Part shown: in pieces, positions 1-60,246 of the stretch
Numbering within the stretch: the first letter of the stretch is position 1
Layout: the number at the start of each line of letters is the position of its first letter
Assembly (NCBI RefSeq): GCF_022559585.1
Contig: NZ_CP087114.1
Location: 39,094 to 103,093, forward strand
From: Bartonella machadoae
GTDB taxonomy: Bacteria; Pseudomonadota; Alphaproteobacteria; Rhizobiales; Rhizobiaceae
DNA: 64,000 nt
Direction: 5' to 3'
Translations under genes and position numbers: made by a program
The notes under the pieces: model-generated
What the model saw: the letters and a program-made list of their open reading frames with translations, nothing else
Databases searched by the model: none
What the model was told of the DNA's origin: nothing

Positions 1-1
1 A

Positions 2-529
2 GAACTTCCAGATTTTTATCACAACTTAGAGGATAATATCCTTTCAAATTTAGCACTAAAATTACTAATTTTGACAGGTGCTCGATCATATCCATTGCGC
101 TATTTGCGTCTTGAGCAGATTGATAAAAATATATGGACCATACCCAAAGAAAATATGAAAGGTATTGTAGGAAAAGTTTCAGACTTTCGTGTGCCACTGA
201 GTAGTGAAGCTATGAAAGTGATTGAAAAAACTCTGCCTTTTGAAAAAAAGGGCTTTCTATTTGCGGGGCTTAAAGGAAAACCAATTTCTGATGCAACGCT
301 TTCTAAATTCATGAAAGACAAAGGCTTTGATTATAGACCTCATGGTTTTAGATCGAGTCTTCGTGACTGGATAGCGGAGACAACATCAACACCATTTGAA
401 ATTGCAGAATCTGTTCTTGCGCATTCAGTTGGTAATTCAGTGACAAAAGCTTACATGCGAACAGACTTCTTAGAGCAACGGCGTGTTCTTTTGGAGCAAT
501 GGGCATCTTTTGTATCAAGAAGTGCTTGA
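2..529 (+). CDS. P4-type tyrosine integrase, C-terminal part (cut by window start)
   Basis: Catalytic half of a tyrosine recombinase that would integrate or excise the prophage. Visible are the first catalytic Arg in the TGAR motif, the His/Arg pair in PHGFRSSLRDW, a second His in LAHSVGNS and the Tyr in KAYMRTDF. The 5' half lies outside the window; the sequence equals residues 211-385 of the full gene at 51263-52420. Its TGA stop lies inside the TTGACA -35 box of the following antirepressor leader, so integrase and cassette are fused end to end. Confidence 0.93.
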   Translation, partial: ELPDFYHNLEDNILSNLALKLLILTGARSYPLRYLRLEQIDKNIWTIPKENMKGIVGKVSDFRVPLSSEAMKVIEKTLPFEKKGFLFAGLKGKPISDATLSKFMKDKGFDYRPHGFRSSLRDWIAETTSTPFEIAESVLAHSVGNSVTKAYMRTDFLEQRRVLLEQWASFVSRSA

Positions 530-555
530 CAATATAGACCCAATGTGTCTATTGT
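526..555 (+). promoter_or_regulatory. Outer promoter of antirepressor cassette I
   Basis: TTGACA (526-531), an 18-nt spacer and TATTGT (550-555). TTGACA and the following motif cgaatcagg recur at the same distance before every cassette leader in the window. A start about 7 nt downstream would place repeat A near the 5' end of the transcript. Confidence 0.6.
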
Positions 556-567
556 CGAATCAGGTGC

Positions 568-591
568 CTAACAAACACCTTAAATGCATAG
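568..591 (+). promoter_or_regulatory. Repeat A of the C4-like leader
   Basis: Two-part sequence (taacaaacac ... tgcatag) complementary to element B (724-743) and similar to A' over the ribosome binding site. It lies downstream of the outer promoter but upstream of the inner one, so only long transcripts carry it. Its role is unknown; it could sequester B in the long transcript. Confidence 0.7.
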
Positions 592-634
592 CGGATTGGT
601 TGCCGAAACAATCTTTTTCCGCCAATTAAAAGCT

Positions 635-664
635 TTGACTCATTATATGTTACACGCATATAAT
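635..664 (+). promoter_or_regulatory. Inner sigma70 promoter driving the C4-like RNA
   Basis: TTGACT (635-640), 18-nt spacer, perfect TATAAT (659-664); predicted start about 671, at the 5' edge of the conserved structured segment. The same spacing is kept in the other cassettes, including the divergent one at 10637-10666 (TTGTCT/TATAAC). Confidence 0.75.
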
Positions 665-670
665 GATCCC

Positions 671-766
671 GTCGGGTGTAGTTATGCTATACAATACCCT
701 TATGGGGAAAGCATAACGACGGACTATGCACCGTGTTTGTTAGCGCCCGGCACTCTTTTTGAGTGT
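671..766 (+). ncRNA. C4-like antisense RNA, cassette I
   Basis: Conserved structured segment upstream of the antirepressor. Stems visible: CCGTCG/CGACGG and GTTATGC/GCATAAC enclosing a CCC-GGG hairpin, then the exposed element B (724-743), then a hairpin CACTC-TTTTT-GAGTG (751-765). B is complementary to A (568-591) and to A' (770-791), which overlaps the AGGAG of the antirepressor. This matches the logic of phage P1/P7 C4 RNA, an antisense RNA made upstream of ant that blocks its ribosome binding site. Covariation across five cassettes supports both the stems and the B:A/A' pairing. Exact ends are inferred. Confidence 0.8.
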
Positions 767-769
767 CAT

Positions 770-795
770 TAACAAACGTCTAACTGCATAGGAGC
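770..795 (+). promoter_or_regulatory. Antisense target A' and ribosome binding site of the antirepressor
   Basis: taacaaac (770-777) and tgcatag (785-791) can pair with B; the second half runs into the Shine-Dalgarno AGGAG (790-794) seven nt before ATG 802. Pairing with the C4-like RNA would hide the ribosome binding site. Confidence 0.75.
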
Positions 796-801
796 CGAAT
801 T

Positions 802-1542
802 ATGGCGCAATATTTAATTAATATAAATCAAACTGAAATTGATGGTGAATTAGTTCAAACCGTTAACGCACGTGAGTTACATGCATTTTTGGAAGTAAAA
901 CGAGATTTTTCCAATTGGATTAAAGATCGCATAAACAAATACGATTTAAAAGAGGGAAGAGATTATATTTTAACGCTCGCCAAAATTGGCGAACGTCAAA
1001 ATGTAGTATTAAAAGAATATTACCTCATACTAAATGTCGCCAAAGAACTTTCTATGCTTGAGAACAATCAGAAAGGCAGAGAAGCTCGTTTGTACTTTAT
1101 CGAATGCGAAAAACTTGCAAAGCAGGCAGTCTTACCGAAGATTGATTATTCAAGTCCACAAGCTATGATTGGTTTCTTGAACCACTTACAAAGCCAAATC
1201 GAGCAGAAAGATCATGTAATTGCTGAGCTAGAGCCTAAGGCAAAGGCGCTTGATGGTTTAAAACGTTCTGATGGCTTGTTTGGTCTTATTGAATCTGCAA
1301 AAATGTTAGAAGTACGACCAAAAGATCTAACCGATTATTTGCGTAAACATGATTGGGTCTATCGACGGGCTCCGGGTGCTCCTTTGTTACCCTATCAGGA
1401 TAAAATCAAAAAAGGTCTCATGGATTGCCCTGCTATCACAATTCAAAGACCGGATGGTACAGAAAAAGTGCTCCCTTCAACAAAAATCACATCTAGAGGA
1501 TTGGCTTGCTTGAGAGAACAAATCCATGGAGGTGTGCAATGA
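802..1542 (+). CDS. AntA-KilAC phage antirepressor (cassette I)
   Basis: 246 aa. Residues ~12-75 form an AntA domain (VNARELHAFLEV, FSNWIKDRI), as in P1 Ant. From about residue 110 to the end is a KilAC-type domain (SPQAMIGFLNHL ... LRKHDWVYRR ... ITSRGLACLREQ). Such proteins antagonise phage repressors and trigger induction or superinfection responses. Translation is probably gated by the C4-like leader. The KilAC half is almost identical to those at 21543, 31748 and 46950, whereas the N-terminal half is locus-specific. The stop overlaps the next gene's start (ATGA). Confidence 0.9.
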   Translation: MAQYLININQTEIDGELVQTVNARELHAFLEVKRDFSNWIKDRINKYDLKEGRDYILTLAKIGERQNVVLKEYYLILNVAKELSMLENNQKGREARLYFIECEKLAKQAVLPKIDYSSPQAMIGFLNHLQSQIEQKDHVIAELEPKAKALDGLKRSDGLFGLIESAKMLEVRPKDLTDYLRKHDWVYRRAPGAPLLPYQDKIKKGLMDCPAITIQRPDGTEKVLPSTKITSRGLACLREQIHGGVQ

Positions 1543-1817
1543 AGGTAGATACCAATTTTTTATGTGATTTGTGGATGGATTTGTTTCAGTTTGTCAATTG
1601 TGAAGATATTAAAGATAAAGACTGTAGCGCACTGGTTGAAGTCATGGGCATTGTAGAAAAAGCTTTGATTTTAAAACTTCAGGATGACGTGCCAAATATT
1701 ACAAAAATTTTAGCAGTCCTTACAGGTTTTGGAACTTCAGAATTACCGCATATCATGAATCCATTATTGCAAGCTTATGCTCCAAGTTTAGAAAATCCTA
1801 TTGTGAAAGCTGCTTAA
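1539..1817 (+). CDS. Conserved 92-aa partner of the antirepressor
   Basis: Starts at ATG 1539 inside the antirepressor stop (ATGA), with GGAGG just upstream; the overlap indicates translational coupling. Soluble, helical and mildly acidic, with a conserved core (ALVEVMGIVEKALILKLQDD) and no recognised domain. Homologues follow the KilAC antirepressors at 21543, 31748 and 46950 in the same overlap, but not the antirepressor at 41475 or the Rha-only gene at 10804. Function unknown; the linkage suggests it acts with KilAC or modulates the antirepressor. Confidence 0.85.
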   Translation: MKVDTNFLCDLWMDLFQFVNCEDIKDKDCSALVEVMGIVEKALILKLQDDVPNITKILAVLTGFGTSELPHIMNPLLQAYAPSLENPIVKAA

Positions 1818-1825
1818 GTAAAACA

Positions 1826-1859
1826 TATCCCTTCCCACTTCAAAAGTGGGGAGGGGATA
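1826..1859. terminator. Bidirectional terminator between cassette I and lysis genes
   Basis: Inverted repeat CCTTCCCACTT / AAGTGGGGAGG with a 2-3 nt loop, 9 bp after the 92-aa gene and 7 bp before the end of the convergent lysis operon. Close relatives end the other cassettes (21229, 31436, 47967). Confidence 0.8.
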
Positions 1860-1865
1860 AGGCTT

Positions 1866-2084
1866 TTAGTTCTTTGAAAACCACTGTTTTAAGTGTGCAA
1901 AAACATTGTCTATTGCATCCATAATCCGAGCAAAGTCAAGGATGAGTAAAAAGAGAAAGAAGGCTATCCACTTCATAAAACGAGACATCATTTTTACATT
2001 TTGATAGGTGATGATCATTTCTTGAAGCATTTCTTTTTCTGCTTCTGTAAGCGCGGCAGTTTTTTTAGTGTTTTTTCTAGCCAT
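1866..2084 (-). CDS. Small membrane protein of the lysis cassette
   Basis: 72 aa from ATG 2084, chosen over an upstream GTG because GGTGG lies four nt before it. Lys/Thr-rich N-terminus, acidic helix (TEAEKEMLQEM), then one hydrophobic segment (WIAFFLFLLILDF, residues ~42-55) and a short amphipathic tail. Position after the spanins and the single membrane segment fit a holin or holin-regulator role, but no family is recognised. Protein sequence is identical in all three copies. Confidence 0.6.
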   Translation of the reverse strand: MARKNTKKTAALTEAEKEMLQEMIITYQNVKMMSRFMKWIAFFLFLLILDFARIMDAIDNVFAHLKQWFSKN

Positions 2085-2283
2085 GTTTCCACCCACACAA
2101 ATATTCACCTTGCTTGTTATGCTTTAAGATCTCTCTTGCTAAGTTTGAACTGATGGCGTTTAAATCTTGGCGCTGCAAATATATCGGCAACCAACCCACA
2201 CAAGAAGAAGCAACTTTATTTGTCGCGCAACCAGTGAGAGAGATCAGTACGCACATCAGCATCACTTTTTTGATTAATTTCAT
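2077..2283 (-). CDS. Outer-membrane spanin lipoprotein (Rz1-like)
   Basis: 68 aa. Signal peptide with lipobox LTGC (Cys ~18), then a short periplasmic domain with CVGW and CGW cysteine motifs typical of Rz1-like lipoproteins of alphaproteobacterial phages. Start at ATG 2283 follows GAGGTGG; a TTG 12 nt upstream is less likely. Overlaps both neighbours slightly. Would join outer and inner membranes with the upstream Rz-like protein in the last step of lysis. Confidence 0.75.
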   Translation of the reverse strand: MKLIKKVMLMCVLISLTGCATNKVASSCVGWLPIYLQRQDLNAISSNLAREILKHNKQGEYLCGWKHG

Positions 2284-2443
2284 TTTCCACCTCAAGCCGT
2301 GTTGTTGCAGTCTTTAAAGCCTTCTCTGTTTGCTTTTGCTGTTCAGTTTTTTTGCCAAGAACAAAAGCTTTTGCTACAATCATAAAAAAAGCGGCTAAAG
2401 CCGCACCTGTTAGCATCAGATTTTTTTTCATCCATAAGATCAT
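2216..2443 (-). CDS. Inner-membrane spanin (Rz-like)
   Basis: 75 aa; ATG at 2443 overlaps the endolysin stop (ATGA). One N-terminal membrane segment (LMLTGAALAAFFMIVAKAFVLG), then a charged coiled-coil-like stretch (KKTEQQKQTEKALKTATTRLEVENEI) and a C-terminal DLSHWLRDK end seen in Rz-like proteins. Its 3' part overlaps the Rz1-like lipoprotein gene out of frame, as i-spanin and o-spanin genes commonly do. Confidence 0.75.
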   Translation of the reverse strand: MILWMKKNLMLTGAALAAFFMIVAKAFVLGKKTEQQKQTEKALKTATTRLEVENEINQKSDADVRTDLSHWLRDK

Positions 2444-3102
2444 AATTTGTGCTCCTGAAAGCGTTTGGCGACACAGAAAAGACCGGCACAGGCGGCTAAG
2501 ACCATAATGGTTGCTAATGCCCATTGGATAGGACCATTGCCCGCTAACAAGCCTCCAAGTCCTGAGAAAGAACCAATGATTGGGGCAAGGGCTTCTGCTT
2601 TGAAAATCCCCATTGGCTGTTTGGTTTCTACTGGTTGATAATTGGAGGAAACATAAGCTCCTTTTGCCCATAAGCCTGCTTCTGCTGTACGCCGATGTAC
2701 AAGACCTTGAAGGCGCTTTCCACCCGCTTTGGTCCATTTCTGTAATTCAGAGGGCACTGCTTCATATTCACCTTGATTGAGTTTTTTTAACAGTGTTGAA
2801 TTGCAAAAGGCTGTTGTTCCTACATTATAACAAAAGGATACGAGTGCCGCGAATTGTTCGTCTGTTAAGGAAACTTGAACAGCGTGTTCAACAGCATTCT
2901 CAAATTGTTGCAAATCATGGCAAAGAAACTCTTCTGCTTGTTCTTCAGTGATTATCATGCCCTTATGAACAAAGGGTTTTCCAGCAGAATTTGTATGCCC
3001 ATAACCAATGGTCCATATACCAATGGCATCTTTATAGGCGTTTAGACGCAAGCCTTCCCATTGTTTAATCAGTGCTAATCCTTCTGATGATATTTTTCTC
3101 AT
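2440..3102 (-). CDS. Endolysin, GH24 lysozyme with C-terminal membrane segment
   Basis: 220 aa. Muramidase of the T4 lysozyme class: catalytic triad E16 (QWEGLRL), D25 (AYKDAIG) and T31 (GIWTIGYGHT) with T4-like spacing. Start at ATG 3102 has GGAG six nt upstream; earlier ATGs lack this. After the catalytic domain (~residue 150) comes a Gly/Ala-rich stretch and one hydrophobic helix (WALATIMVLAACAGLFCVA, ~192-210). The tail could anchor the enzyme or carry holin-like activity. First gene of the lysis cassette. Confidence 0.9.
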   Translation of the reverse strand: MRKISSEGLALIKQWEGLRLNAYKDAIGIWTIGYGHTNSAGKPFVHKGMIITEEQAEEFLCHDLQQFENAVEHAVQVSLTDEQFAALVSFCYNVGTTAFCNSTLLKKLNQGEYEAVPSELQKWTKAGGKRLQGLVHRRTAEAGLWAKGAYVSSNYQPVETKQPMGIFKAEALAPIIGSFSGLGGLLAGNGPIQWALATIMVLAACAGLFCVAKRFQEHKL

Positions 3103-3112
3103 AGGTTTCTCC

Positions 3113-3141
3113 ATAAAAAAAGCTCCGCACAAGGCAGAGCT
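3113..3141 (-). terminator. Rho-independent terminator upstream of the endolysin
   Basis: On the minus strand AGCTCTGC-loop-GCGGAGCT is followed by a run of seven T, ending about 10 nt before the endolysin start. It would stop late transcription entering from gpD and so may lower or delay lysis-gene expression. Confidence 0.7.
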
Positions 3142-3226
3142 GGATTTAAAAGTGAATCTCTTTCCCCTTCGAAAAGACGGCTTATTAAAAGTTATGTAGT
3201 TTTTTCACTGGAACATAAGAATATAT

Positions 3227-3255
3227 TTGACATTGTCTGTTGTGTATCTTATAAG
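3227..3255 (+). promoter_or_regulatory. Promoter of the HI1419/HI1420-type TA operon
   Basis: TTGACA (3227-3232), 17-nt spacer, TATAAG (3250-3255). The -10 ends six nt before ATG 3262 and no Shine-Dalgarno is present, so the mRNA should be leaderless or nearly so. Confidence 0.7.
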
Positions 3256-3261
3256 TTACAA

Positions 3262-3570
3262 ATGTTTACAGTGCATAAAACAAAATACTTTATGAAATGG
3301 TTAGATTCTTTAAAAGACGAGATTGCGCAGGCACATGTTGTTACACGGATTGCAAGAATAGAAACAGGGTTTCTTGGTAATGCAAAATTTTTCCGTGGGA
3401 TTGGAGAATTAAAAATAAATCACGGACCAGGCTATCGTGTTTATTTTTTCAAACAAGGAAAAGAGATCATTTTATTACTTAATGGTGGCGATAAATCTAC
3501 TCAGCAAAAAGATATTGAAAAAGCTCTTCAATTAGTAAAGGAAATAAAAAATGGAAATCACCAAATTTGA
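3262..3570 (+). CDS. RelE/ParE-family toxin, HI1419 type (phage Gp49-like)
   Basis: 102 aa. Compact RelE-fold toxin of the putative addiction-module killer group: WLDSLKDEIAQAHVVTRIARIETG, then GIGELKINHGPGYRVYFFKQG and a C-terminal LLLNGGDKSTQQKDI. Members of this superfamily are typically ribosome-dependent mRNA endonucleases. Overlaps its antitoxin gene by 20 nt. Inserted on the plus strand between gpD and the endolysin, both on the minus strand. Confidence 0.85.
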   Translation: MFTVHKTKYFMKWLDSLKDEIAQAHVVTRIARIETGFLGNAKFFRGIGELKINHGPGYRVYFFKQGKEIILLLNGGDKSTQQKDIEKALQLVKEIKNGNHQI

Positions 3571-3871
3571 TACAAGCGAATATTTCAAAACGCCTGAAAC
3601 GCAGAAAATTCTTTTACAAGATGCTCTTGAAAGCAAAGATAGTAAATATCTTGCACATGCTCTTGGCATAATAGCAAAAAACCAAGGGATGAGTAAAATT
3701 GCTCAAAATACAGGGCTATCAAGAGAGTCCCTTTATCGTTCTCTAAGTGATAAAGGTGACCCACGGCTTTCTACTTTTCTCAGTGTTTTGAGTGCTTTAG
3801 ATTTGCAAATCAGTTTAACTCCTGTTCAAAATAATTCTGAGAAACAAACAGTGTTAGAAGAAGCATCTTAA
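3551..3871 (+). CDS. Antitoxin, HI1420-type HTH protein
   Basis: 106 aa. XRE-like helix-turn-helix in the middle (MSKIAQNTGLSRESLYRSLS) and a LSTFLSVLSALDLQISL segment characteristic of the addiction-module antidote family paired with HI1419-type toxins. Overlaps the 3' end of the toxin gene, so toxin precedes antitoxin (reversed order, as in higBA). Expected to bind the toxin and repress the operon promoter at 3227-3255. Confidence 0.85.
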   Translation: MEITKFDTSEYFKTPETQKILLQDALESKDSKYLAHALGIIAKNQGMSKIAQNTGLSRESLYRSLSDKGDPRLSTFLSVLSALDLQISLTPVQNNSEKQTVLEEAS

Positions 3872-3909
3872 TCTTTTCTTCACTTTTTTAATATTTTTGC
3901 TAATTTGAC

Positions 3910-5220
3910 TTATATATCTCCCTCATCCATATGGATGACGCCTTCACCTTCCTCATATGCATTTTGTGGAGCGTTTGGATCAAGAGTATCATCCTTGTCT
4001 GGCGTTGTGTTTGCAACATTTCCAGCTGCATCTTCTTGTCCTTCATCAAAAAGTTCGCACTCTATTTTTGTGGTGTAACCACCCATTTTATCAAGCTTGT
4101 GCTTGACGCTTTTGATGCGCCATTCTGCTGGTATATAAGGACGGAAAGGGGGCTCTTGAACAAGCTTTGCCTCTGCTTGCACAAAGGGATCACCACCAAT
4201 ATCACAGGAGAAAGAAGATTTGCCCCGTGATGATTTGTTACGATAAGCGGCAATGGCTGCAACAGCCTCTGATTGATTATGATAGGTATATTTGAGTTCA
4301 TGAAACGGTGGATGACCGGATTTGACTTCTTTCTTTTCACCACTGCGTAGATCATAATAGGTTGCGATAACGCCGCCTTTTTTCTCTTGTTCTTGCTTCT
4401 CCGCTTCTTTTTCTGTTTTTTCTCCTTTCTCTGGTTCAGATGGTTCTGGTAGATCATTTTCATCCATATGGATGGCGTTTTCATCCTCCTCTATCTCTTC
4501 TGGTGCACGAGCATCCGCTGCGGCTTTTTGGTCCTCACCACCATCCATTTCTAGACCATTGGCTGCACCTGCTTCATCCCGTGCGCTGTATTTAAAATCC
4601 CAAGAGGTGCAATGTTTCTCATGAAGAACCACTACGGGGAGTGTCTCGCCGGTGATGGCTTTACCTTCCCCCCGTTTGGCAAGGACTAGCTTACCATCAA
4701 CAGGCTTTGCTACCGCGTCATATTCCTCTGCAAGGCGGGCGGCAAAAGCCATATCACTTTCAGATGTTTGATCAATATGACGCACAACAATTTTCGCAAG
4801 AGAAGGGTCAACCTTTGCGGTATAACCATTACGCTGTGCGATCTCTTGAACAATATGGCCAAGTGTTTGCTGGTGATAAGATTGGCTTTTTGGTGTTCTA
4901 TAAGACGTGTTCATCGCCGCAGCACGTCCTGTAACAGTTAAGCTTTGTGGTGGACTGCTTACAGAGATTTCATCTATCAGATAGGCTCCCATATCGCGTA
5001 TTTTGTCGCCCTCATAGCCAAGTGTTACGGAAAGAACTGTTCCGATGAGGGGTATATCAAGAAAGCCATTATCACTGTTGCGTGCACGGTCATCAAGCTC
5101 TATGGTGATACGGTCGCTTTTGTCTTCTGCCTCATCGGTTATTTCAATTGATAAAACATAATCTATGAGAGTTTTGGTGATGTCTTGTCCATTTGCCATA
5201 ACCATGCAAAAAGGTTTCAT
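3910..5220 (-). CDS. D: P2 gpD-like late control / tail hub protein
   Basis: 436 aa (COG3500 family). Forms the hub at the tail tip onto which baseplate and tape measure assemble. Start ATG 5220 overlaps the gpX stop (ATGA). The N-terminal hub domain is followed by an acidic, lysine/glutamate-rich low-complexity linker (about residues 220-285, EPEKGEKTEKEAEKQEQEKK) and a C-terminal domain (HELKYTYHNQSEAVAAIAA). Two copies of the motif HMDE occur in the linker and extreme C-terminus. Last gene of the tail operon. Confidence 0.9.
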   Translation of the reverse strand: MKPFCMVMANGQDITKTLIDYVLSIEITDEAEDKSDRITIELDDRARNSDNGFLDIPLIGTVLSVTLGYEGDKIRDMGAYLIDEISVSSPPQSLTVTGRAAAMNTSYRTPKSQSYHQQTLGHIVQEIAQRNGYTAKVDPSLAKIVVRHIDQTSESDMAFAARLAEEYDAVAKPVDGKLVLAKRGEGKAITGETLPVVVLHEKHCTSWDFKYSARDEAGAANGLEMDGGEDQKAAADARAPEEIEEDENAIHMDENDLPEPSEPEKGEKTEKEAEKQEQEKKGGVIATYYDLRSGEKKEVKSGHPPFHELKYTYHNQSEAVAAIAAYRNKSSRGKSSFSCDIGGDPFVQAEAKLVQEPPFRPYIPAEWRIKSVKHKLDKMGGYTTKIECELFDEGQEDAAGNVANTTPDKDDTLDPNAPQNAYEEGEGVIHMDEGDI

Positions 5221-5441
5221 GATTTGCTGCCCCAAATTCTAATCACCGGTGTGGCTTTGGGATAGGGGAGGGAGGGCAAAATGATTGTGATGCCTGCTGT
5301 CAAAATGGGTCCATAGTCTGCAAGCCCTAAATTTGCTGCATAGACACGTTCGACAGCAAGCGATTGTTGACCTTTAGCATAATATTTCCAACAAATGGCA
5401 TCAACCATATCGCCTTCTTTGGTCCTATAAAGATCACTCAT
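5217..5441 (-). CDS. X: P2 gpX-like tail protein (LysM-type)
   Basis: 74 aa, usual length for the Phage_tail_X family. Contains the LysM-like pattern EGDMVDAICWKYYAKG...VYAANLGLADYGPILTAGITIILP. Overlaps gpU and gpD by a few bases on either side. Needed for tail completion in P2; likely sits at the tail tip. Confidence 0.9.
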   Translation of the reverse strand: MSDLYRTKEGDMVDAICWKYYAKGQQSLAVERVYAANLGLADYGPILTAGITIILPSLPYPKATPVIRIWGSKS

Positions 5442-5818
5442 AGGTCTCCACCATACTCTCTCAGTTTTACTGTAAATTCTTGTTTTTTGGGGGCACCGTT
5501 ATAATGAAAAACGCTTTGCTTTTCTTCTACAGAAAGGATGACAAACTTCCCTAAAATTTTGCCTTGCCCTGTTACAAGAATGTGAGGTCCCTGATGGGCA
5601 ATTTGCCGCAAATATTCGAGTTGTCCATGCCCACCTTTGAAGTCTGGATAGATCACACCCGTTAAGGAAAATTCCGCATTTGCAACAGCAGGCAATTGAA
5701 GAGCGGCTTTTCGTCCCAATCGTCCTTGCTCGACCCATGGTATACCATAAGACAGATCAAGAGTTTGATAGGCTGCTGTTTCAATCGAAAAAATAAAACT
5801 ACCCAAAGCAAGCATCAT
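5438..5818 (-). CDS. U: P2 gpU-like tail protein
   Basis: 126 aa, matching the P2 GpU family (MLALGSFIFSIETAAYQTL ... HGQLEYLRQIAHQG...LREYGGDL). Tail-tip/tail completion protein, between tape measure and gpX as in P2. Confidence 0.9.
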   Translation of the reverse strand: MMLALGSFIFSIETAAYQTLDLSYGIPWVEQGRLGRKAALQLPAVANAEFSLTGVIYPDFKGGHGQLEYLRQIAHQGPHILVTGQGKILGKFVILSVEEKQSVFHYNGAPKKQEFTVKLREYGGDL

Positions 5819-5823
5819 GGTCT

Positions 5824-7958
5824 TTAATCCGAAAGGCTAGAGGCTATCGCCAAACGTTGCTGTTTGGCATAGCGTTCAAGAGCTTGATTGACAGCGTCTC
5901 TGATTTCGTCTTTGAGACCATTTGGCACTGAAATATTTAAATTTGTAATGGTTACACGGGCATCTACTTCAACATCTTTATGAACCGTAATTGGTTTGGG
6001 AGCTTTGAAGGCATCTGCTTTTGCATTGGGAGTTTCTATATGCCTTGTTTCAAGTGACCCTAGATTAAAACCACTGTTGCTTTTTCCAAAGGGGGACTTG
6101 GTGACAACAGCGGTATCCATTATTCTTTTTGCACGTGCATTGGTTTCATCGGTAAAGGTTTTAATCGTTTCTGTTGAAGTTTTATTGATTGAAACATTGA
6201 AACCAAGTTTTTCTTTCATCCAGTTAGGCATCCAACTGGTTAATTTGCTTATCATGCCGCTAAACCAATTGCATAGAGCGGTCCATTGGCTTTTGATGCC
6301 GTCCCACAAGCTGCCAATGAGATTAGCCCCTGCATCCATTAAATTGACGCCAAACAACCAATCAATCAATGCGTTGATTTTTTTGCTATCCAGTAGAGTG
6401 GTGAAAACTTTTTAAAGAGAGTAAAGAGTTTACTGAAAGTGTTACTGAACAAACTGGCAAAAGAATCCCATAACTTGCTTATGAAATTTACGACTGTATT
6501 CCAGTTTTTGTAGAGCAGATATCCAGCTGTGACAAGCGCCGCAATGCCTCCGATTATCCAACCGATAGGAGTGGTCATGATTGCGACACCAAGTGATATA
6601 AAAGCAGAACCAACGGCAGTTATTGCTGGAATAAGTGAAGTGACAAGAGTTACAGCAAGACCGGCAACTGCATAAGCTGCTGGTGCCATTGCCGCAAGGA
6701 ATGCTCCGGTAAGAACTGCTCCAACTGCGGCTAAAGATGCTGCGACCCAACCATTGAGTTTGTCCCAATATTTATAGAGTGCAACAAGTGCCGCAATACC
6801 CCCAATGAGCCAACCAATAGGTGTTGTCATGATTGTATAGCCAAGCGTGACAAAAGATGCGCCCACGGCAGCTAATGCAGCAATGAGTGGACCAAAAATA
6901 AAGGAACCAAGCGCTATAAGACCTACTTTTAACAGGGTTATTTCACCAACAAGCGGTTTCATCCAGAAAAACCAGCCTTTAATCCTCTCGGTAAGATCGC
7001 TGATGCCTTTTCTCAAATCAGAGGTAGGATCAAGCAAATCATGAAAGACTTTTTTTAAGGTTTTAGCCCATCCAGAAACGGTTGTTTTTATGAGATCACG
7101 GTTTTCGTCAATCAGTTTTTCAAAAGCGTCAATCATATCGTTGAGAATGGGCATAAAGCGTGCGCCAATAAAGCTCGCGATACCGCCTATTTTTTTCTTA
7201 AAAGCACCAAGCTTATCACTTAAATCTGCGGCATAGCGTGCAACATCGGCACCAATTAACCATTTTCCTTTCCGTGCTTTTGCAAACAGCTCTTTGATGG
7301 GAGCCATCCCTTGCGCAAGCATGGCTGCCATTTCTTTGCCATCGCCACCAAACAGCAGAGCAGCAATATGCTGTCTTTGCGCTTGGTTGTTCATCTTACT
7401 CATCTTATCGGTAATTTCTTCTAACAAGGTAGAGTTTGATTTGAGTTTTCCAGAGGCATCTTTGACAGAAATGCCAAGCGCCTCAAACCCCATAATGCCT
7501 CTTTTTTGTCCGGCATATGCTTGTGCCGAACGCCTATTTAAAGTTGCTAAGGATTGTTGAAAAAGTTCAGAAGAGTATCCTGAATTGTCTGCCGCATCAC
7601 CCCATAACTGAAGCGCTGTGACACTCATTCCCAAATGCCGTGATGCGTGATGAAGACTATCCTCAAGATGCATGGTTTTCATGGTGACGGCGGTGACACT
7701 TGCGATAAGACCTCCACCGGCAAGCCCTAAAGCACCGGTAAAGAGCGAAGCACGGCTTGCCGCTGTACCAAGAGCACTTTGAACGCCTTGCAAACGTGAT
7801 GTCATATTTTTTACCGCAGCAGAAAAGCGAGGGATACTCAATCTATGGGAGAGTGTCTTTGACAATGTATCAAATCTTTTTTGAAGATGTTTAAGAGGTG
7901 CGGTAAGTTTGTCTTCAAGAGACAATTTTACCTTTGCATCAGCAACTTTTTCACTCAT
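5824..7958 (-). pseudogene. T: Tape-measure protein (gpT-like), frameshifted in this copy
   Basis: The tape measure sets tail length. The intact version at 57715-59850 has 711 codons. Here an A-tract on the coding strand near 6378-6384 has seven A instead of eight, so the 5' reading frame ends at 6366 after IAKKSTH (530 aa) and the rest (6369-5824, 181 aa) is in another frame. Features: coiled-coil N-terminus, several membrane-like Gly/Ala-rich helices each followed by PIGW(L/I)IGGIAALV, and a C-terminal charged helix. Either a real disabling mutation, a phase-variable tract or a sequencing error. Confidence 0.85.
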
Positions 7959-8146
7959 TTTGATTTATACCTTTCCGCTGCTTGTTTTCGCCAGAAGATT
8001 AATTCTTGCGGTTCCATTTCCATCATGTCTGCAAGGGACCAATGAAAAACGATGGCAATATCCGCTATCAGTTGAGCGGCGGTTTCCCAGTCGAGGTATC
8101 CCGCCGCTTGATAAAAGACTCTAAAATTTCTCCAATGCTCGATAAG
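7955..8146 (-). CDS. P2 GpE-family tail chaperone extension, expressed by -1 frameshift
   Basis: Open frame without its own start codon (63 codons after a stop at 8147-8149), in the -1 frame of the gene ending at 8068. It encodes the GpE signature IADIAIVFHWSLADMMEMEPQELIFWRKQAAER. In P2, E and E+E' are made by a programmed -1 frameshift and act as tape-measure chaperones. The two frames overlap from 8146 to 8068; a T-rich stretch in the codons for ESFIK may be the slip site, but no perfect heptamer is visible. Stop overlaps the tape-measure ATG. Confidence 0.8.
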   Translation of the reverse strand, partial: LIEHWRNFRVFYQAAGYLDWETAAQLIADIAIVFHWSLADMMEMEPQELIFWRKQAAERYKSK

Positions 8147-8352
8147 TCACTAATATCGAGTTCTCCAACAGCTTCATGGGGCCATCCAGAAAGGCGGGCA
8201 ACCATAGCAATTGTTTGTTCAACACCTTCCTTTTTGTCGATTGCTTGCACATCTTTTGTTTTGGGGCGCTGTAAGGTAATTGTAGTATGCTCTTTTCCTT
8301 CAAAGGTCACAGGGATAAGCAATTGATGCGTCATGCTTGATTGTACGGTCAT
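8068..8352 (-). CDS. E: Tail assembly chaperone (P2 gpE-like)
   Basis: 94 aa, between tail tube and tape measure, the conserved place for the chaperone. Pattern LLIPVTFEGKEHTTITLQRPKTKDVQAIDKK...VARLSGWPHEAVGELDISDLSSIGEILESF is typical of the tail-assembly (TAC) family. The alternative -1 product would continue into the GpE-like frame at 8146-7955. Confidence 0.85.
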   Translation of the reverse strand: MTVQSSMTHQLLIPVTFEGKEHTTITLQRPKTKDVQAIDKKEGVEQTIAMVARLSGWPHEAVGELDISDLSSIGEILESFIKRRDTSTGKPPLN

Positions 8353-8354
8353 TT

Positions 8355-8861
8355 TTATATTCCTAAAAAGTTTTTATGTTCTGCTAATTGATTAACACCA
8401 TTGAATTTTCTGATTAAGTTGAGGACATCTATCTCAACAATTTCAACATCCTTCTGAACATATTTGAAATACTGTAATGTAAATGTAGCAGTAGATGTTG
8501 CTTTGCTTCCCGGTTGCCATTCTGCCATTTCAAAGCCTTTGCAAAGCCCCCTCATGGTAATGACAACACCTTCTGCTGGTGTGCCTTGTGCTTGCATTGA
8601 ACTTCGCAATGAAATGTTTACATCAGAGCGCCCTAACAGTGCCATCAGTTCTGGAGAGCAATCAGAAATGGTCATAGTGAGGATGAGTGTTTCAAGCCCA
8701 AGATCAATCTCAAGAGAGCTATCCATGCCACCACCGCGATAGCCTTCAACAACCAAACTTAAATTTGGCAGCGTCACGCTTTCGCATTTTGCCTGATAGG
8801 GAATACCATCAACAAAAATGTTAAAATATTTTAGAACTCTCGGTAAAACGGGTACAGTCAT
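8355..8861 (-). CDS. FII: Tail tube protein (P2 gpFII-like)
   Basis: 168 aa, normal length for the Phage_tube family: LPRVLKYFNIFVDGIPYQAKCESVTLPNL...GYRGGGMDSSLEIDLGLE...LQYFKYVQKDVEIVEIDVLN. Polymerises into the inner tube of the contractile tail. The GTG/ATG region overlaps the sheath stop by one base. Confidence 0.95.
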   Translation of the reverse strand: MTVPVLPRVLKYFNIFVDGIPYQAKCESVTLPNLSLVVEGYRGGGMDSSLEIDLGLETLILTMTISDCSPELMALLGRSDVNISLRSSMQAQGTPAEGVVITMRGLCKGFEMAEWQPGSKATSTATFTLQYFKYVQKDVEIVEIDVLNLIRKFNGVNQLAEHKNFLGI

Positions 8862-10252
8862 TAAAAGATCTCCTCTAGGTAGTCATTGATGATGCGTGAA
8901 CGGAATGTGATATGTTCTGCTGGTGTTGTTGGTGTAAATTCAACATTGAAATAGACTCTGCCGCTCTCAATAGCGCTTGCTGTATTCAACTCTGGATCAG
9001 GCGTGCACTGCCCACCGAGAATGGCACCTTGCGCTTTTAAATCACGCAAATAGGCATTGACGCTTTCACTCACATCACTCATGTAGGTTTTTTTGATATT
9101 GCGGTCGACCGCCCACATATGCCCACGCAAGATGGCGTCATTAATCATATCCGCGGTTCTCACAACGGATAAGAAAGCGAATTTTGTATCGCTTGAAAGG
9201 GTACGATTGCCCCAAAGACGATAACCATTCTCACGAATAATTGTTGTGATGTTTTGTTCATTGAGAAGGTTGGCACGGCTTGATCTGTCACCAATGGAAA
9301 AATCAATCGGGCGGGTAATTCCTACAATGCCATTGATCACTTTGTTTGAAGGGGAATGCCAAAAACCATGTGTGAAATCTGTTTTGGCAATGACACCAGC
9401 AACTGCTGCACTTGCCGGCTGTTCTAGGATTTCTCCATTACGATTTACCTTTACAAAAGGATCAACAATAAGCGCGCGTTTTGAATCAAAATCCTTTGCT
9501 GCATCAAGAGCTGCTTCATCGGTTGTGTTTGGTGCGTCAATGATCACAATAGCGCGTAGCCGCTCGGCAATACCAATCAACTCTGCTGCTACAGGATTAG
9601 AGGTTACACTGATTTCGGCTTTTGCTGTTGCACCAATGCCATCACCTTCAATCGTTACATTGGGGGCGGTTTGATAATCAAAACCATTGTCCTTGAGAAT
9701 AATCGAGGTTACTTGTCCATTATCTAGGATTGCTTCTGCTTTTGCACCACCGGCAATTTTAACAGTTGCTTGAGTATAACCACTCCCTTTGTTGGTAACC
9801 TCAATCTTGCTAAGGCTAATAGGGCGTTTATGGGTAAAGCCTGGAGCAATCAGAATGCGTGGTGTTTGTCCAAGAAGGGATTGCGCTCCAATCAAAGCAT
9901 GCACACCTTCATAAGCACCATTTGTATTCACACCGCCTAAAACATTGGTCAATGTTGCACTTTCATTGTCGCCTTCTTGCACACGCACGACAACAACAAT
10001 AGCACCCACTTGCTTGAAAATGAGATCAAGAGCATTGGGTAGGGTACCTTGACGTTTTCCTGTTTTATCCAGTTTTGCTGCTTGTGAAAGTGAACCGGTA
10101 ACCAACACCGGCGTATTGAGGGGAAAAGCCTGTTCATCGGCATCGGGTGCTGTGCCGACAATGCCGATAACTGCCGATTGAACTGCACGAAGGGGACGCG
10201 TTCCATCGTCCACCTCGACAACTTCAACACCGTGTAAAAAACCTGTTGTCAT
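8861..10252 (-). CDS. FI: Contractile tail sheath protein (P2 gpFI-like) with an inserted surface domain
   Basis: 463 aa from ATG 10252 (GGAG seven nt upstream; six extra codons precede it). Core sheath features: FLHGVEVVEVDDGTRPLRAVQSAVIGIVGTAP near the N-terminus and a C-terminal FNVEFTPTTPAEHITFRSRI. Residues ~145-218 are an insertion relative to P2 FI, with two GxGYTxAxVxI-like repeats (KGSGYTQATVKI and NGFDYQTAPNVTI), probably a beta-rich decoration on the sheath exterior. Confidence 0.93.
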   Translation of the reverse strand: MTTGFLHGVEVVEVDDGTRPLRAVQSAVIGIVGTAPDADEQAFPLNTPVLVTGSLSQAAKLDKTGKRQGTLPNALDLIFKQVGAIVVVVRVQEGDNESATLTNVLGGVNTNGAYEGVHALIGAQSLLGQTPRILIAPGFTHKRPISLSKIEVTNKGSGYTQATVKIAGGAKAEAILDNGQVTSIILKDNGFDYQTAPNVTIEGDGIGATAKAEISVTSNPVAAELIGIAERLRAIVIIDAPNTTDEAALDAAKDFDSKRALIVDPFVKVNRNGEILEQPASAAVAGVIAKTDFTHGFWHSPSNKVINGIVGITRPIDFSIGDRSSRANLLNEQNITTIIRENGYRLWGNRTLSSDTKFAFLSVVRTADMINDAILRGHMWAVDRNIKKTYMSDVSESVNAYLRDLKAQGAILGGQCTPDPELNTASAIESGRVYFNVEFTPTTPAEHITFRSRIINDYLEEIF

Positions 10253-10289
10253 TATGATGCTCCTTTGCATGGTTGGTGAATAAAAATGA

Positions 10290-10475
10290 ATGGAAAAAAT
10301 GAGAGATAAAAAACCGTTTTTGAGAACGAATATTGCTGTTACAACCTCTTTGAAAATTGCAGAGGGGGTGAGGCATACTCATAAAACAGTTATGCAGCTG
10401 GTTCGTCAAAATATTAAAGACTTTGAAGAATTTGGTTCACTCGCATTTGAAATGCGAGTGAGTAGAAAAGGGTAG
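10290..10475 (+). pseudogene. Truncated Rha-family fragment
   Basis: 61 codons; residues from ~14 on (TNIAVTTSLKIAEGVRHTHKTVMQLVRQNIKDF) closely parallel residues 11-60 of the Rha protein at 10804, then a stop comes at RKG where the intact gene continues RDGKGGQ. Remnant of a tandem Rha duplication, still possibly translated. Sits immediately upstream of leader II. Confidence 0.7.
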
Positions 10476-10532
10476 CATTTCAAATGCGACCCTTTGGAAT
10501 AGCAGTATGTGAAATAATTTTTTAAAAGCATA

Positions 10533-10803
10533 TTGACACTAATAAACCCTCATGTTATTCGAATCACAAGTGCTAGAAACACTAAACCATTAGCGGATAG
10601 GTCACGTAAGATCTCTCCCATGCATTTAAATACTGATTGTCTTTTATGCTATTATTGGCATATAACGATTTTGTCGGGTGTAGCTATGCTATACAATACC
10701 TTCTCACGAGGGGAAGGCATAGCGACGGACTAATGGCCGTGTTTCTAACGCCCGGCACCCTTAGGGGTGTCAATAGAGACATTAAAACCATTAGGAGTTA
10801 ATC
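10533..10803 (+). ncRNA. C4-like antisense leader, cassette II (Rha)
   Basis: Most divergent leader. Outer promoter TTGACA (10533-10538); A = ctagaaacac...ccattag (10573-10593); inner promoter TTGTCT/TATAAC with 18-nt spacer (10637-10666); B = ctaatggccgtgtttctaac (10730-10749); hairpin CACCC-TTA-GGGGTG; A' = tagagac...ccattag (10774-10794) touching AGGAG before ATG 10804. The hairpin CACCC/GGGTG replaces CACTC/GAGTG of cassette I, a compensatory change. Code: ccattag. Confidence 0.75.
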
Positions 10804-11325
10804 ATGAACAATTTAGTAACCATCGACAGTGCTGGTGTTGCCGTCACAACCTCTTTGAAAATTGCAGAGGGTGTGGGGAATAGCCATGCGACTGTCATCA
10901 AACTTGTACGCAATAATCGTAAGGATTTTGAAGAATTTGGTTCACTTGGATTTGAAATCCAAGTGAGTAAAAGAGACGGTAAAGGCGGTCAAAAAAGAGA
11001 AGTTGCAATCCTCAACGAACCACAAGCAACTTTACTCATGACCTATATGCGTAACAATGATATGGTGCGTGCATTTAAAAAAGCACTTGTTAAAGCTTTT
11101 TATGATTTAAAAAACCAGTTAATTGATAATGACCGTGATACACGATTTGCTTTTCCAAGCAACTGGGATGAAATGGGACCTACTGAAAAGGCTGTTTACA
11201 TTTACGGACCTCTCCACATGCATCTTGTTAAAGCCTTCACATTAGCAGAAGAGAGTAAACATTATAAAACGCTTATTGAAGAAGCCAAACGTGTTTTAGC
11301 AAATCCTGTTGCAAAAGTAGTTTAG
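10804..11325 (+). CDS. rha: Rha-family phage regulatory protein (cassette II)
   Basis: 173 aa. N-terminal Rha domain (VAVTTSLKIAEGVGNSHATVIKLVRNNRKDFEEFG...KREVAILNEPQATLLMTYMRNNDMVRAFKKALVKAFYDLKNQL). The C-terminal part is unique and no KilAC domain or 92-aa partner follows. Rha proteins interfere with phage growth or repressor control. Antisense control by the C4-like leader is likely. Plus-strand insertion between sheath and fibre genes. Confidence 0.9.
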   Translation: MNNLVTIDSAGVAVTTSLKIAEGVGNSHATVIKLVRNNRKDFEEFGSLGFEIQVSKRDGKGGQKREVAILNEPQATLLMTYMRNNDMVRAFKKALVKAFYDLKNQLIDNDRDTRFAFPSNWDEMGPTEKAVYIYGPLHMHLVKAFTLAEESKHYKTLIEEAKRVLANPVAKVV

Positions 11326-11338
11326 ATTAAAACATAAT

Positions 11339-11372
11339 ATCATCTCCTCGTCTTTAAAGGCGGGGAGATGAT
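11339..11372. terminator. Bidirectional terminator between rha and higBA
   Basis: ATCATCTCC / GGGGAGATGAT inverted repeat between convergent operons, in the same relative place as the CCTCCCC-type terminators of the other cassettes. Confidence 0.75.
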
Positions 11373-11391
11373 AAAAGCTCTAGCTATTTTA

Positions 11392-11733
11392 TTAACAACT
11401 ATGGTCCATTTGTACATTGACTTTTTTACTAGCTTCTAGTGTTGGAATAGAAGAAACATCAATATCACGCTCGGCATGCCAAGCGTCATAATTGGCTTGC
11501 ATACGTAACCATATGGAAGCTCCATCACCAAACATTTTGCCAAGACAAGCAGAAATAGAAGGAGAGACAGGCTTTTTTGTATTCAGGATATCATAGAGAT
11601 GTTGGCGTGATATACCGAGCATCTGTGCAATTTCTGACTTTGTTTTGCCAGTCTCTGGAATAATTTCCGCTAAAATTTCTCCTGGATGAGTAGGACAACG
11701 GTTTTTGTCTCTTTGCGCAGGAATGTCATTCAT
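11392..11733 (-). CDS. higA: HigA-type antitoxin
   Basis: 113 aa from ATG 11733 (AAGGA eight nt upstream). HigA/VapI-like XRE protein: HPGEILAEIIPETGKTKSEIAQMLGISRQHLYDILNTKKPVSPSISACLGKMFGDGASIWLRMQANYDAW. Lies 10 nt after higB, toxin first. Expected to neutralise HigB and autoregulate the promoter at 12028-12056. Confidence 0.92.
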   Translation of the reverse strand: MNDIPAQRDKNRCPTHPGEILAEIIPETGKTKSEIAQMLGISRQHLYDILNTKKPVSPSISACLGKMFGDGASIWLRMQANYDAWHAERDIDVSSIPTLEASKKVNVQMDHSC

Positions 11734-11743
11734 AACTGTATCC

Positions 11744-12022
11744 TTAGTGGTATTGTTCAAGATCAACACGGTAAGCATTACACGAGTCAAATTCAAAAGT
11801 GATACACCATGGTCCATTAACGTGAACAGTGTAACGGGTAGGTGAATATCCGATTAAAGAATGAAAGTTAAACCCTGGAAGATTCATATCTTCTGGTCTT
11901 TCACAAATATCTAAACGATCAAGACGAATAATGATACGTTTTATAAGTCTTTTATCAATCTTAGATGATTTTCCCGTTTTGAATAATTCTGCTAGTGTTT
12001 TGCTTTTAAACGTTTTAATCAT
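11744..12022 (-). CDS. higB: HigB-type toxin
   Basis: 92 aa, RelE-superfamily HigB (pfam05015 type): MIKTFKSKTLAELFKTG...RLDRLDICERPEDMNLPGFNFHSLIG...YTVHVNGPWCITFEF. Family members cleave translated mRNA on the ribosome. ATG begins five nt after the -10 box. Confidence 0.92.
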   Translation of the reverse strand: MIKTFKSKTLAELFKTGKSSKIDKRLIKRIIIRLDRLDICERPEDMNLPGFNFHSLIGYSPTRYTVHVNGPWCITFEFDSCNAYRVDLEQYH

Positions 12023-12027
12023 TACCT

Positions 12028-12056
12028 TATATAGCGTAAAAAACCACTTGTGTCAA
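12028..12056 (-). promoter_or_regulatory. Promoter of higBA
   Basis: On the minus strand TTGACA (12056-12051), 17-nt spacer, TATATA (12033-12028); the ATG is at 12022, so the transcript should be leaderless. Confidence 0.7.
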
Positions 12057-12123
12057 CAAATAGCTTACAATATAAATATTAAAATGGAAAAAACATAAAT
12101 ATCCTATTGGAAAGCCTGATAGA

Positions 12124-21267: not shown

Positions 21268-21546
21268 TTAAGCAACCTTTTTAATAGGGTTTTCCCAATT
21301 CGGCTGGTAAGCTTTTAAAAAAGGATCTATCGTTGCGGGAAACTCTGAAGCTCCAAAATCTGTAAGAACTGCTAGAATCTTTGTAATATTTGGCACGTCA
21401 TCTTGAAGTTTCAAAATCAAAGCTTTTTCTACAATGCCCATAACCTCAACCAGTGCCTTACAATCTTTATCTCCAATGCCTTTATGGTTAGAAAATTGAG
21501 ACAACGCTATCCACAAATCACATAAAAAATTGGTATCTACTTTCAT
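21268..21546 (-). CDS. 92-aa antirepressor partner (cassette V)
   Basis: ATG 21546 overlaps the antirepressor stop as ATGA. Compared with the protein at 1539 the region around residues 13-25 reads ALSQFSNHKGIGDKDCK and the C-terminus EFPATIDPFLKAYQPNWENPIKKVA, while the central EVMGIVEKALILKLQDDVPNITKILAVLT is identical. It forms a subtype with the copy at 47678. Confidence 0.85.
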   Translation of the reverse strand: MKVDTNFLCDLWIALSQFSNHKGIGDKDCKALVEVMGIVEKALILKLQDDVPNITKILAVLTDFGASEFPATIDPFLKAYQPNWENPIKKVA

Positions 21547-22274: not shown

Positions 22275-22548
22275 AATGAATTCCTTGATGTTAGACGTTT
22301 TTGATTGACACTCTAAAAGAGCGCCGGGTGCTCAAAAACACGGCATCAAGTCCGTCGTTATGCTTTCCCCCTAAGGGTATTGTATAGCATAACCACACCC
22401 GACAAAGCTATTATATGCGTGTAGCATATAATGAGTCAAAGCTTTTAAATTGCGGAAGACTGATTATTTCGGCAACCAATCCGCTTGATGTTTTAAGGTG
22501 TTTTTGAGGCACCTGATTCGAAAATATATATTACAGAAATAATGTCAA
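22275..22548 (-). ncRNA. C4-like antisense leader, cassette V
   Basis: Minus strand: outer -35 TTGACA at 22548-22543; A = ctcaaaaacac...catcaag (22508-22484); inner promoter TTGACT (22439-22434) and TATAAT (22415-22410), spacer 18; B 22350-22331; A' = tcaaaaac...catcaagg (22304-22283) before ATG 22274. Code catcaag, different from every other locus, with B, A and A' all changed in concert. Confidence 0.8.
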
Positions 22549-22589
22549 GTATCTTTCGATAATTTTTTAATATTTTTTGCTAATTTGAT

Positions 22590-45169: not shown

Positions 45170-45171
45170 CC

Positions 45172-53708: not shown

Positions 53709-53716
53709 GTAAAACA

Positions 53717-53750
53717 TATCCCTTCCCACTTCAAAAGTGGGGAGGGGATA
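53717..53750. terminator. Bidirectional terminator (second copy)
   Basis: Identical hairpin to 1826-1859. Confidence 0.8.
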
Positions 53751-53756
53751 AGGCTT

Positions 53757-55762: not shown

Positions 55763-55800
55763 TCTTTTCTTCACTTTTTTAATATTTTTGCTAATTTGAC

Positions 55801-57709: not shown

Positions 57710-57714
57710 GGTCT

Positions 57715-60244: not shown

Positions 60245-60246
60245 TT

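Follow-up and report, generated by a model that had tools for sequence, protein, structure and literature searches.

Locus-matched antisense segments in leaders of the sRNA-Xcc1 RNA family upstream of antirepressor and other mobile-element genes of Bartonella machadoae

In a stretch of 64,000 nucleotides (nt) of Bartonella machadoae (bases 39094-103093 of its genome of one contig, 2.71 Mb; the whole stretch is hereafter called the window), five genes for antirepressors or Rha-domain proteins are each preceded by a leader of about 270 bp that contains three related elements, termed A, B and A'. At locus 1 (plus strand), an outer promoter (TTGACA-18 nt-TATTGT, 526-555; 10 of 12 consensus positions) is followed by element A (568-591), which consists of the reverse complements of two segments of B: the B2 site CTAACAAAC (568-576), flanked by GGTG and CACC and possibly forming a hairpin loop, and the B1 site TGCATAG (585-591). 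A terminator-like hairpin with a T run (GATTG..CAATC, then TTTTT; 594-618) may form the 3' terminus of a short A RNA. Behind an inner promoter (TTGACT-18-TATAAT, 635-664; 11 of 12) lies the B RNA (671-759), a relative of the Rfam family sRNA-Xcc1 (RF02221; 50.3 bits, E 5.5e-6, below the 53-bit cut-off; z-score of the minimum free energy -3.5), with the antisense segments B1 (loop; CTATGCA, 724-730) and B2 (joint; GTTTGTTAG, 735-743). Element A' (770-791) comprises TAACAAAC (770-777) and TGCATAG (785-791), the latter overlapping into the GGAG in front of the putative target, an antirepressor gene with AntA and KilAC domains (802-1542; PF08346, 1.1e-22; PF03374, 1.3e-21). Such a leader very probably constitutes a three-part RNA lock, in which B would block the translation start at A', A would serve as a decoy, and the pairing codes are specific to each locus.

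The other four leaders have the same order of parts. At locus 2 (plus strand, 10533-10803), A lies at 10574-10593 and the B RNA at 10673-10764 (43.3 bits, E 2.6e-4), with B1 at 10730-10736, B2 at 10741-10748 and the A' site for B1 at 10788-10794; the inner promoter (10637-10666) scores 9 of 12 only, and B2 has no exact match of at least 5 nt in A' (7 pairs if G-U is included). The predicted target is a Rha-domain gene (10804-11325; PF09669, 3.8e-17). Locus 3 (minus strand, 22275-22548) comprises A (22484-22508), an inner promoter (22410-22439), a B RNA (22314-22404; 57 bits, E 1.4e-7, above the Rfam cut-off) with B1 at 22344-22350 and B2 at 22331-22339, and A' (22284-22304), all in front of an AntA/KilAC antirepressor gene (21543-22274; PF08346, 3.1e-26). 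Locus 4 (minus strand, 32468-32739) is composed of A (32676-32699), an inner promoter (32602-32631), a B RNA (32507-32595; 47.4 bits; B1 32536-32542, B2 32523-32531) and A' (32477-32496), and precedes a Rha/KilAC gene (31748-32467; PF03374, 8.3e-22; PF09669, 3.9e-18). At locus 5 (plus strand, 46676-46949), A (46718-46741), the inner promoter (46785-46814), the B RNA (46820-46910; 49.1 bits; B1 46874-46880, B2 46885-46893) and A' (46921-46941) are followed by another Rha/KilAC gene (46950-47681; PF03374, 5.4e-22; PF09669, 6.2e-19). A sequence-only reading had previously placed these five leaders and ordered their parts, and all were found as described. The words it quoted for A, B and A' are real, with gtac amounting to 6 nt at A and to 5 exact nt at A' (7 pairs with G-U). 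It had assumed a single element antisense to A and A'; B1 corresponds to this element, and the second segment, B2, had been missed.

Scanning with all Rfam models identified eight RF02221 copies in the window (E 1.4e-7 to 2.6e-4), so that the earlier count of five holds for the antirepressor and Rha leaders and has to be extended by two tandem-repeat copies and one solitary copy; just one of the eight, that of locus 3, exceeded the curated 53-bit cut-off. The genome contains 46 copies (six above the cut-off; weakest E 1.5e-4), which collapse to 37 distinct leaders. By covariance model, the leaders are diverged copies of sRNA-Xcc1. A part of the window of 3.6 kb is 93% identical to a Bartonella contig, as judged by comparison with 17 Bartonella stretches. 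Within the genus of the window, matches were found in 26 of 37 genomes (own included) versus none of 24 genomes from other families of the order, in a survey with strict filters and partial scoring of candidates in large genomes, the zeros of which may include misses. Among plasmids, BLAST searches with the RNA retrieved five from Bartonella (E 4e-16 to 7e-13) and a weak match in Vogesella; among phages, seven records with E 2 to 8 were obtained.

The fold of the B RNA (about 88 nt) consists of a closing stem, two hairpins, of which the first is long and contains an inner stem and the second is short, and a single-stranded joint. B1 is the 7-nt loop of the short hairpin and B2 the joint, mostly 7-9 nt in length; both are the variable parts of the RNA. 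In the 37 distinct leaders, 99.8% of the stem cells were paired, as compared to 34-57% in slid structures. Covariation of the stems, which had been proposed from the five leaders, was confirmed in the whole set: with the structure derived from the same alignment as the one tested, 49 doubly changed cells were counted versus 13.8 after shuffling, a value reached by none of 500 shuffles. Of the five covariation measures, one did not stand out: further pair types numbered 21, versus 19.5 after shuffling (91 of 500 shuffles as high). Elements A and A' each hold complements of B1 and B2, arranged as needed for antiparallel pairing, and A' is located immediately before the gene, with its B1 site overlapping into the Shine-Dalgarno sequence.

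Complementarity within leaders was then compared with that between leaders of different code. For B1, the longest complement was 6.62 (own) versus 4.10 (other code) in A' and 6.70 versus 4.10 in A; the corresponding values for B2 were 7.30 versus 5.34 and 7.51 versus 5.15 (37 leaders). For every segment and side, own complementarity was matched by none of 20,000 permutations in which codes were swapped. At least seven contiguous pairs, G-U allowed, were formed by B1 with A' in 35 of the 37 leaders and with A in 33, with identical numbers for B2 (35 and 33), and all four pairings were present in 32. By the same measure, non-cognate pairing occurred in 4% (B1-A'), 9% (B1-A), 43% (B2-A') and 31% (B2-A) of the cases. 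Because these rates are far lower for B1 than for B2, B1 is predicted to carry most of the specificity. The summed duplex energy to A' averaged -15.2 kcal/mol for the own and -8.0 kcal/mol for other targets, and the own target was best or tied in 34 of 37 leaders. From these energies, recognition is predicted to be almost entirely confined to cognate pairs, apart from a few near-cognate ones such as L007/L020/L036.

The objection that such matches reflect phylogeny was addressed with disjoint pairs of nearest neighbours, i.e. leaders 72-91% identical that differ in B1 (leaders L021, L029 and L042 set aside; some codes recur between pairs). In all 16 pairs, the partner's exact word was absent from A' in both members. 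The own word was present exactly in A' of 29 of the 32 pair members, and the other three had 5 nt plus G-U. Three leaders depart from this rule: the solitary copy (L021), L042, which is diverged, and L029, which is devoid of an upstream A. In L030 and L039, A is mismatched and A' kept, and L016 behaves likewise for B2 when only exact matches are considered, as though constraint were stronger on A' than on A. The leaders seem to recombine, with L014 and L030 being alike upstream and unlike in B2 and A'.

An outer promoter with at least 9 of 12 consensus positions was present in 36 of the 37 leaders (shuffled mean 8.2; 10 or more in 3% of the shuffles). The inner promoter with its fixed 18-nt spacer, which had been regarded as a constant feature, was seen at the five loci and is not general: a score of at least 10 of 12 was reached in 13 of 37 leaders (1% of the shuffles), namely in 12 of the 16 antirepressor or Rha leaders and in the solitary copy. 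With the inner promoter placed after A and before B, these two promoters could together determine how much A RNA is made relative to B RNA. Operator-like dyads over the outer promoter were inconsistent, with arms of just 5-7 nt, and were discarded.

An open reading frame (ORF) of at least 60 amino acids begins at the first suitable ATG downstream of 35 of the 37 distinct leaders, some being truncated where the sequence excerpt ends. Their products comprise 17 proteins with YdcK-type beta-solenoid repeats, 11 AntA and five Rha proteins. Two YdcK-type proteins tested belong to the phage family phrog_5070 (E 2.7e-84 and 1.1e-58), to which no function is assigned. At L356:2749-6589 and L357:9004-12745 (both minus strand), five genes with YdcK-type N-termini (Pfam searched for a few) are arranged in tandem; in both arrays, the first gene is the RNA-locked one. 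One YdcK array adjoins a gene for a type ISP restriction-modification enzyme of 1663 amino acids (L356:8008-12996, minus strand).

Further, named genomes and viral contigs were scanned for the pattern. As these scans (at least 118 and at least 120 stretches, respectively) require the conserved core, the resulting sets are biased samples rather than censuses, and the counts given below apply to the matches listed. RF02221-type RNAs were found in genomes of Xanthomonas, Haemophilus and Bartonella, among others; nine representative loci elsewhere all matched RF02221, and for eight the score exceeded the curated cut-off. When 127 loci were searched with a model derived from the 37 leaders, 117 matches were obtained at E<=1. 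Of these, 64 were used after omission of 51 high-scoring rows (assigned by title or score to Bartonella or the window's genus) and two weak ones; none of the 64 is from Xanthomonadaceae, and one (L166) is from the window's own genus. Among the 64, matches of at least 6 nt were found for B1-A' in 47 (9% when swapped), B1-A in 53 (10%), B2-A' in 42 (14%) and B2-A in 50 (15%), and none of 5000 permutations was as good for any of the four pairings. Where found, the B1 site ended 1-14 nt before an ATG in 48 of 52 cases (the 64 RNAs together with the integron type described below). Similar numbers were obtained for 93 RNAs of viral contigs (out of 130, exact duplicates alone removed): B1-A' 76 and B1-A 78 (swapped, 10% and 12%), B2-A' 74 and B2-A 72 (25% and 21%).

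The 83 ORFs downstream of the viral-contig RNAs included 16 AntA, 13 KilA-N, 10 P22_AR_N, nine Rha, nine Bro-N and three YdcK proteins. In the broad genome set, 57 of 62 ORFs were aligned; eight had Bro-N, three each Rha, P22_AR_N and KilA-N, and one each AntA and ORF6N domains, and at least 33 of the 57 had no Pfam match at 0.001. At L114, L083, L061, L158 and L149 (three Pseudovibrio), the guarded gene codes for a small protein (..SLRNEVDQL..) with no Pfam match at 0.001.

In the family of Xanthomonas, RF02221 was present in 22 of 79 genomes drawn and occurs in two forms. From the copy set scanned for attC-like ends, three near-duplicates were dropped, and four of 47 loci were not located. 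The first form (seven distinct copies) is assigned to integrons on the basis of attC-like ends, located upstream in six of the seven copies, together with a published survey (PMC12444791). One attC-end motif was found in a 20-kb stretch, in which the integrase was not searched for. Matches of at least 6 nt were present for B1-A in six, B2-A in seven, B1-A' in five and B2-A' in six of the seven copies, and a SymE-family protein (PF08845) was encoded in five of the six cases in which proteins were scanned. The second form, of about 83 nt (27 distinct copies), is matched to A (B1 in 25, B2 in 26 of 27; at least 6 nt). At loci of this form (L188, L189, L199, L211, L228 and others), the codes of B and A are matched and vary, the terminator-like hairpin is strong, and a downstream target is mostly lacking. 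The genes after some of them share the motif GYFLPE(D/E)..RL..; two that were tested had no Pfam match over the cut-off. Three genomes were searched for possible trans targets of a single Xanthomonadaceae code; one match was obtained in one of them (control, 0), which is probably due to chance.

Duplex energies were also calculated for 98 of 104 RNAs of the broad set. Mean own energies were equalled after swapping in four of 5000 permutations downstream and none upstream for Xanthomonadaceae, and in none on either side for the others. The own target was best downstream in two of 34 and upstream in 10 of 34 Xanthomonadaceae RNAs, the downstream result pooling the 27 copies that mostly lack A' with the seven of integron type, in which it is present; for the others, 18 of 64 were counted on both sides. 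In this GC-rich set the energies were judged to be confounded by G+C content, and exact-match lengths were therefore used.

Taken as a lock, the leader would work as follows: (i) the B1 loop and the B2 joint would pair with the two A' sites ahead of the downstream gene; (ii) by analogy with C4 of phage P1, pairing over the Shine-Dalgarno sequence would block ribosome binding; (iii) the A RNA, transcribed from the outer promoter, is probably a decoy that would soak up B and allow the gene to be translated, as judged by analogy with IsrK of Gifsy-1. Because both segments differ by locus, each B RNA is predicted to recognise mostly its own gene, with many locks per cell.

Several findings weigh against this reading. 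The whole study is an analysis of DNA sequence, from which fold, covariation, code matching, predicted specificity, overlap with the Shine-Dalgarno sequence and gene content were read; that the B RNA is made in this organism, represses translation and acts in trans, with A as its decoy, we infer from them. Scores below the Rfam cut-off were obtained for seven of the eight window copies and 40 of the 46 genome copies, and the search at E<=1 also gave matches, below the cut-off, in two of 14 control genomes. Taken by itself, B2 discriminates weakly (non-cognate pairing 31% for A, 43% for A'). Selection for unique codes was tested for and not supported, with 36 of 37 code pairs being distinct at a null mean of 35.6 and 59% of the shuffles as high; the codes are diverse, yet not beyond what random recombination gives, and selection against cross-talk is not apparent in these sequences. 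No 6-nt match of B1 to A' was present in 17 of the 64 other-genome and 17 of the 93 viral-contig RNAs. The decoy step is weakened because a terminator-like hairpin after A was called in just 21 of the 37 own leaders at lax settings (14% of the shuffles; none at loci 2 and 3) and, at stricter settings, in 29 of the 64 others; the latter settings detected it in four of seven integron-type and 23 of 27 83-nt Xanthomonadaceae RNAs (4-5% of the shuffles). Finally, downstream matches of the 83-nt form were at chance level (four and two of 27; as good in 659 and 1280 of 5000 permutations).

The last two results are those expected if the pairing of B with A is what matters, B controlling read-through of the terminator after A by attenuation and A' being secondary: the 27 Xanthomonadaceae RNAs keep A and mostly its hairpin while A' is at chance. 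This alternative is nevertheless unlikely. In the genome studied here, B1 has its match in A' slightly more often than in A (35 versus 33 of 37); L030 and L039, and by exact match L016 for B2, retained A' next to a mismatched A; the A' site lies on the Shine-Dalgarno sequence; and L221, one of the 27 and a clear exception among them, has both A' sites. Still less probable is a leader acting only in cis, in which the long transcript would fold such that B sequesters A' or A and no free small RNA is formed. A, B and A' are indeed contiguous on one strand behind one outer promoter, and a strong inner promoter is present in just 13 of 37 leaders; however, the fold of B is self-closing and presents B1 in a loop, and RNAs of the family have been observed in Xanthomonas (PMC2996969) and Xylella (PMC12189769). 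That A, B and A' are mere relics of duplication in a mobile repeat, with matches inherited rather than selected, is scarcely credible: the leaders are repeated often, seem to recombine (L014/L030) and include a chimeric solitary copy, but the matched words of 7-9 nt stand in unlike flanks and changed together in all 16 nearest-neighbour contrasts, and the rule also holds in other genomes and viral contigs.

The RNA lock proposed here resembles C4 of phages P1 and P7 in its closing stem, its two hairpins and its antisense segments in a loop and in a single strand; in P1 C4, the loop of a hairpin (b') pairs with the site overlapping the Shine-Dalgarno sequence and a joint (a') with the site just upstream, and the two are similar to B1 and B2. 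In P1, C4 is located at 48343-48419, with a1 and b1 upstream and a2 and b2 downstream, b2 lying before icd. In both systems the target sites are duplicated up- and downstream, the last one on the ribosome-binding site, and C4 guards an antirepressor operon. The sequence-only reading had taken the leaders for C4 relatives acting on the antirepressor start. Topology, order of sites, Shine-Dalgarno overlap and locus-specific complementarity are as in P1, but the RNAs belong to RF02221, and the comparison with the Rfam C4 model that it had suggested turned out negative: C4 (RF01695) had no match in the window (E<=10) or in the whole genome (E<=1), and P1 C4 scored 4.2 bits with the model of these leaders. 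The c4-2 model gave no match in the genome, nor did it give one in its controls. As the C4 model gives no match, descent from C4 is not demonstrated; in Rfam, clan CL00128 holds C4 and c4-a1b1, and RF02221 is in no clan. The second stem of the leaders is longer than that of C4 and has a conserved AUACAAUACCC..GGGGAA-type core. In addition, an extra promoter between A and B is present in 12 of 16 antirepressor/Rha leaders, whereas the two annotated c4 promoters of P1 are upstream of a1; RNase P processes C4 out of a longer transcript, and in 13 of 37 leaders the inner promoter may offer an alternative to such processing. The proposed restriction to antirepressors fits AntA or Rha in 16 of the 35 downstream ORFs; the targets extend beyond it to the 17 YdcK-type ORFs and to SymE in the Xanthomonas integron form (five of six).

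IsrK, a short upstream RNA of Gifsy-1 in Salmonella, raises translation of the antirepressor gene anrP about 140-fold in trans (PMC4825925). Like A, it lies upstream, is complementary to the sequence that follows and precedes an antirepressor gene, and it ends at a terminator (PMC4825925); unlike that of IsrK, the role of A is assigned by analogy. The isrK and c4-a1b1 models (RF01394, RF03163) had no match in the window at E<=10, and the P1 upstream region scored 35 bits with the isrK model, below its cut-off of 50. Twenty-one group 1 C4-like small RNAs with variable target loops have been described in one genome of Acinetobacter baumannii (PMC5320573), comparable to the many RNAs found here; those are C4 by Rfam and their authors favoured host transcripts as targets, whereas the codes of the leaders match the adjacent gene. 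The Brt RNAs of Bartonella henselae (multicopy, 194-203 nt) likewise precede regulator genes in the same genus; they are set apart by description, the genes being of XRE-type helix-turn-helix rather than AntA, Rha or YdcK type (PMC5387305).

The family to which the leaders belong by covariance model was detected as an 88-nt RNA in Xanthomonas, with targets that are computed only (PMC2996969), and has been tied to virulence regulators (cited in PMC12189769). A 2025 integron survey found symE plus sRNA-Xcc1 to be the most widespread Xanthomonas cassette and suggested a divergent regulatory mechanism; the integron RNA lies upstream of symE on the same strand, whereas SymR is antisense to symE (PMC12444791). 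In Xylella fastidiosa Temecula1, five sRNA-Xcc1 homologues (sXF1-5) lie 381-386 bp apart (PMC12189769), a spacing that would fit repeated leader modules; the authors described them as vesicle RNAs with plant targets (PMC12189769). In the open-licence literature no paper was found that joins sRNA-Xcc1 and antirepressors, and the accessible parts of open-licence papers naming RF02221 do not propose a code-lock mechanism. What is new here is the link between sRNA-Xcc1 and C4-type silencing, the layout itself being known from P1 C4.

The remaining copies in the window reflect its repeat structure. Positions 1-12108 and 51892-64000 are 99.99% identical, and copies of the locus 1 leader with its antirepressor gene (52417-53433, plus strand; B RNA 52562-52650) and of the locus 2 leader with its Rha gene (62425-63217, plus strand; B RNA 62565-62656) lie in the second repeat. 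Across the genome, RNA copies recur at an offset of 51,891-51,892 bp. Genes for an S24-type repressor (40250-40849), an integrase (45139-46212) and a GpA terminase (27795-29720) are present in the window, and the offset repeat would fit a single prophage present twice in head-to-tail order. Each of the two copies would then have five antirepressor-type loci, all with different RNA codes. The solitary B RNA upstream of locus 3 (22588-22678, minus strand; 48.3 bits) has an intact inner promoter and neither A' nor a gene. It is chimeric, with the B1 of locus 4 and the B2 of locus 3 of the same prophage, and its upstream A (in 22750-22820) has a third code.

On balance, the data slightly favour the view that RF02221 represents a second class of C4-type silencers, unrelated to C4 in sequence: a portable lock with a two-part code fitted by mobile elements onto genes whose carriage is hazardous (those for antirepressors, phage beta-solenoids and SymE toxins, and many uncharacterised small genes), with dozens operating in parallel per cell, and with a lock-plus-decoy in Xanthomonadaceae whose cis target is lost and which may act at other sites. 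A concrete mechanism is thus proposed for an RNA family without one, which has also been reported in Xylella and in integron cassettes (PMC12189769, PMC12444791). If true, it would explain the role of sRNA-Xcc1, hitherto read as a virulence RNA, and predictions of host or plant targets for its homologues (e.g. PMC12189769) would first need to be checked against the adjacent gene. Studies of prophage cross-talk and superinfection specificity could further draw on the leaders as a natural collection comprising tens of antisense pairs, for which largely orthogonal pairing is predicted.

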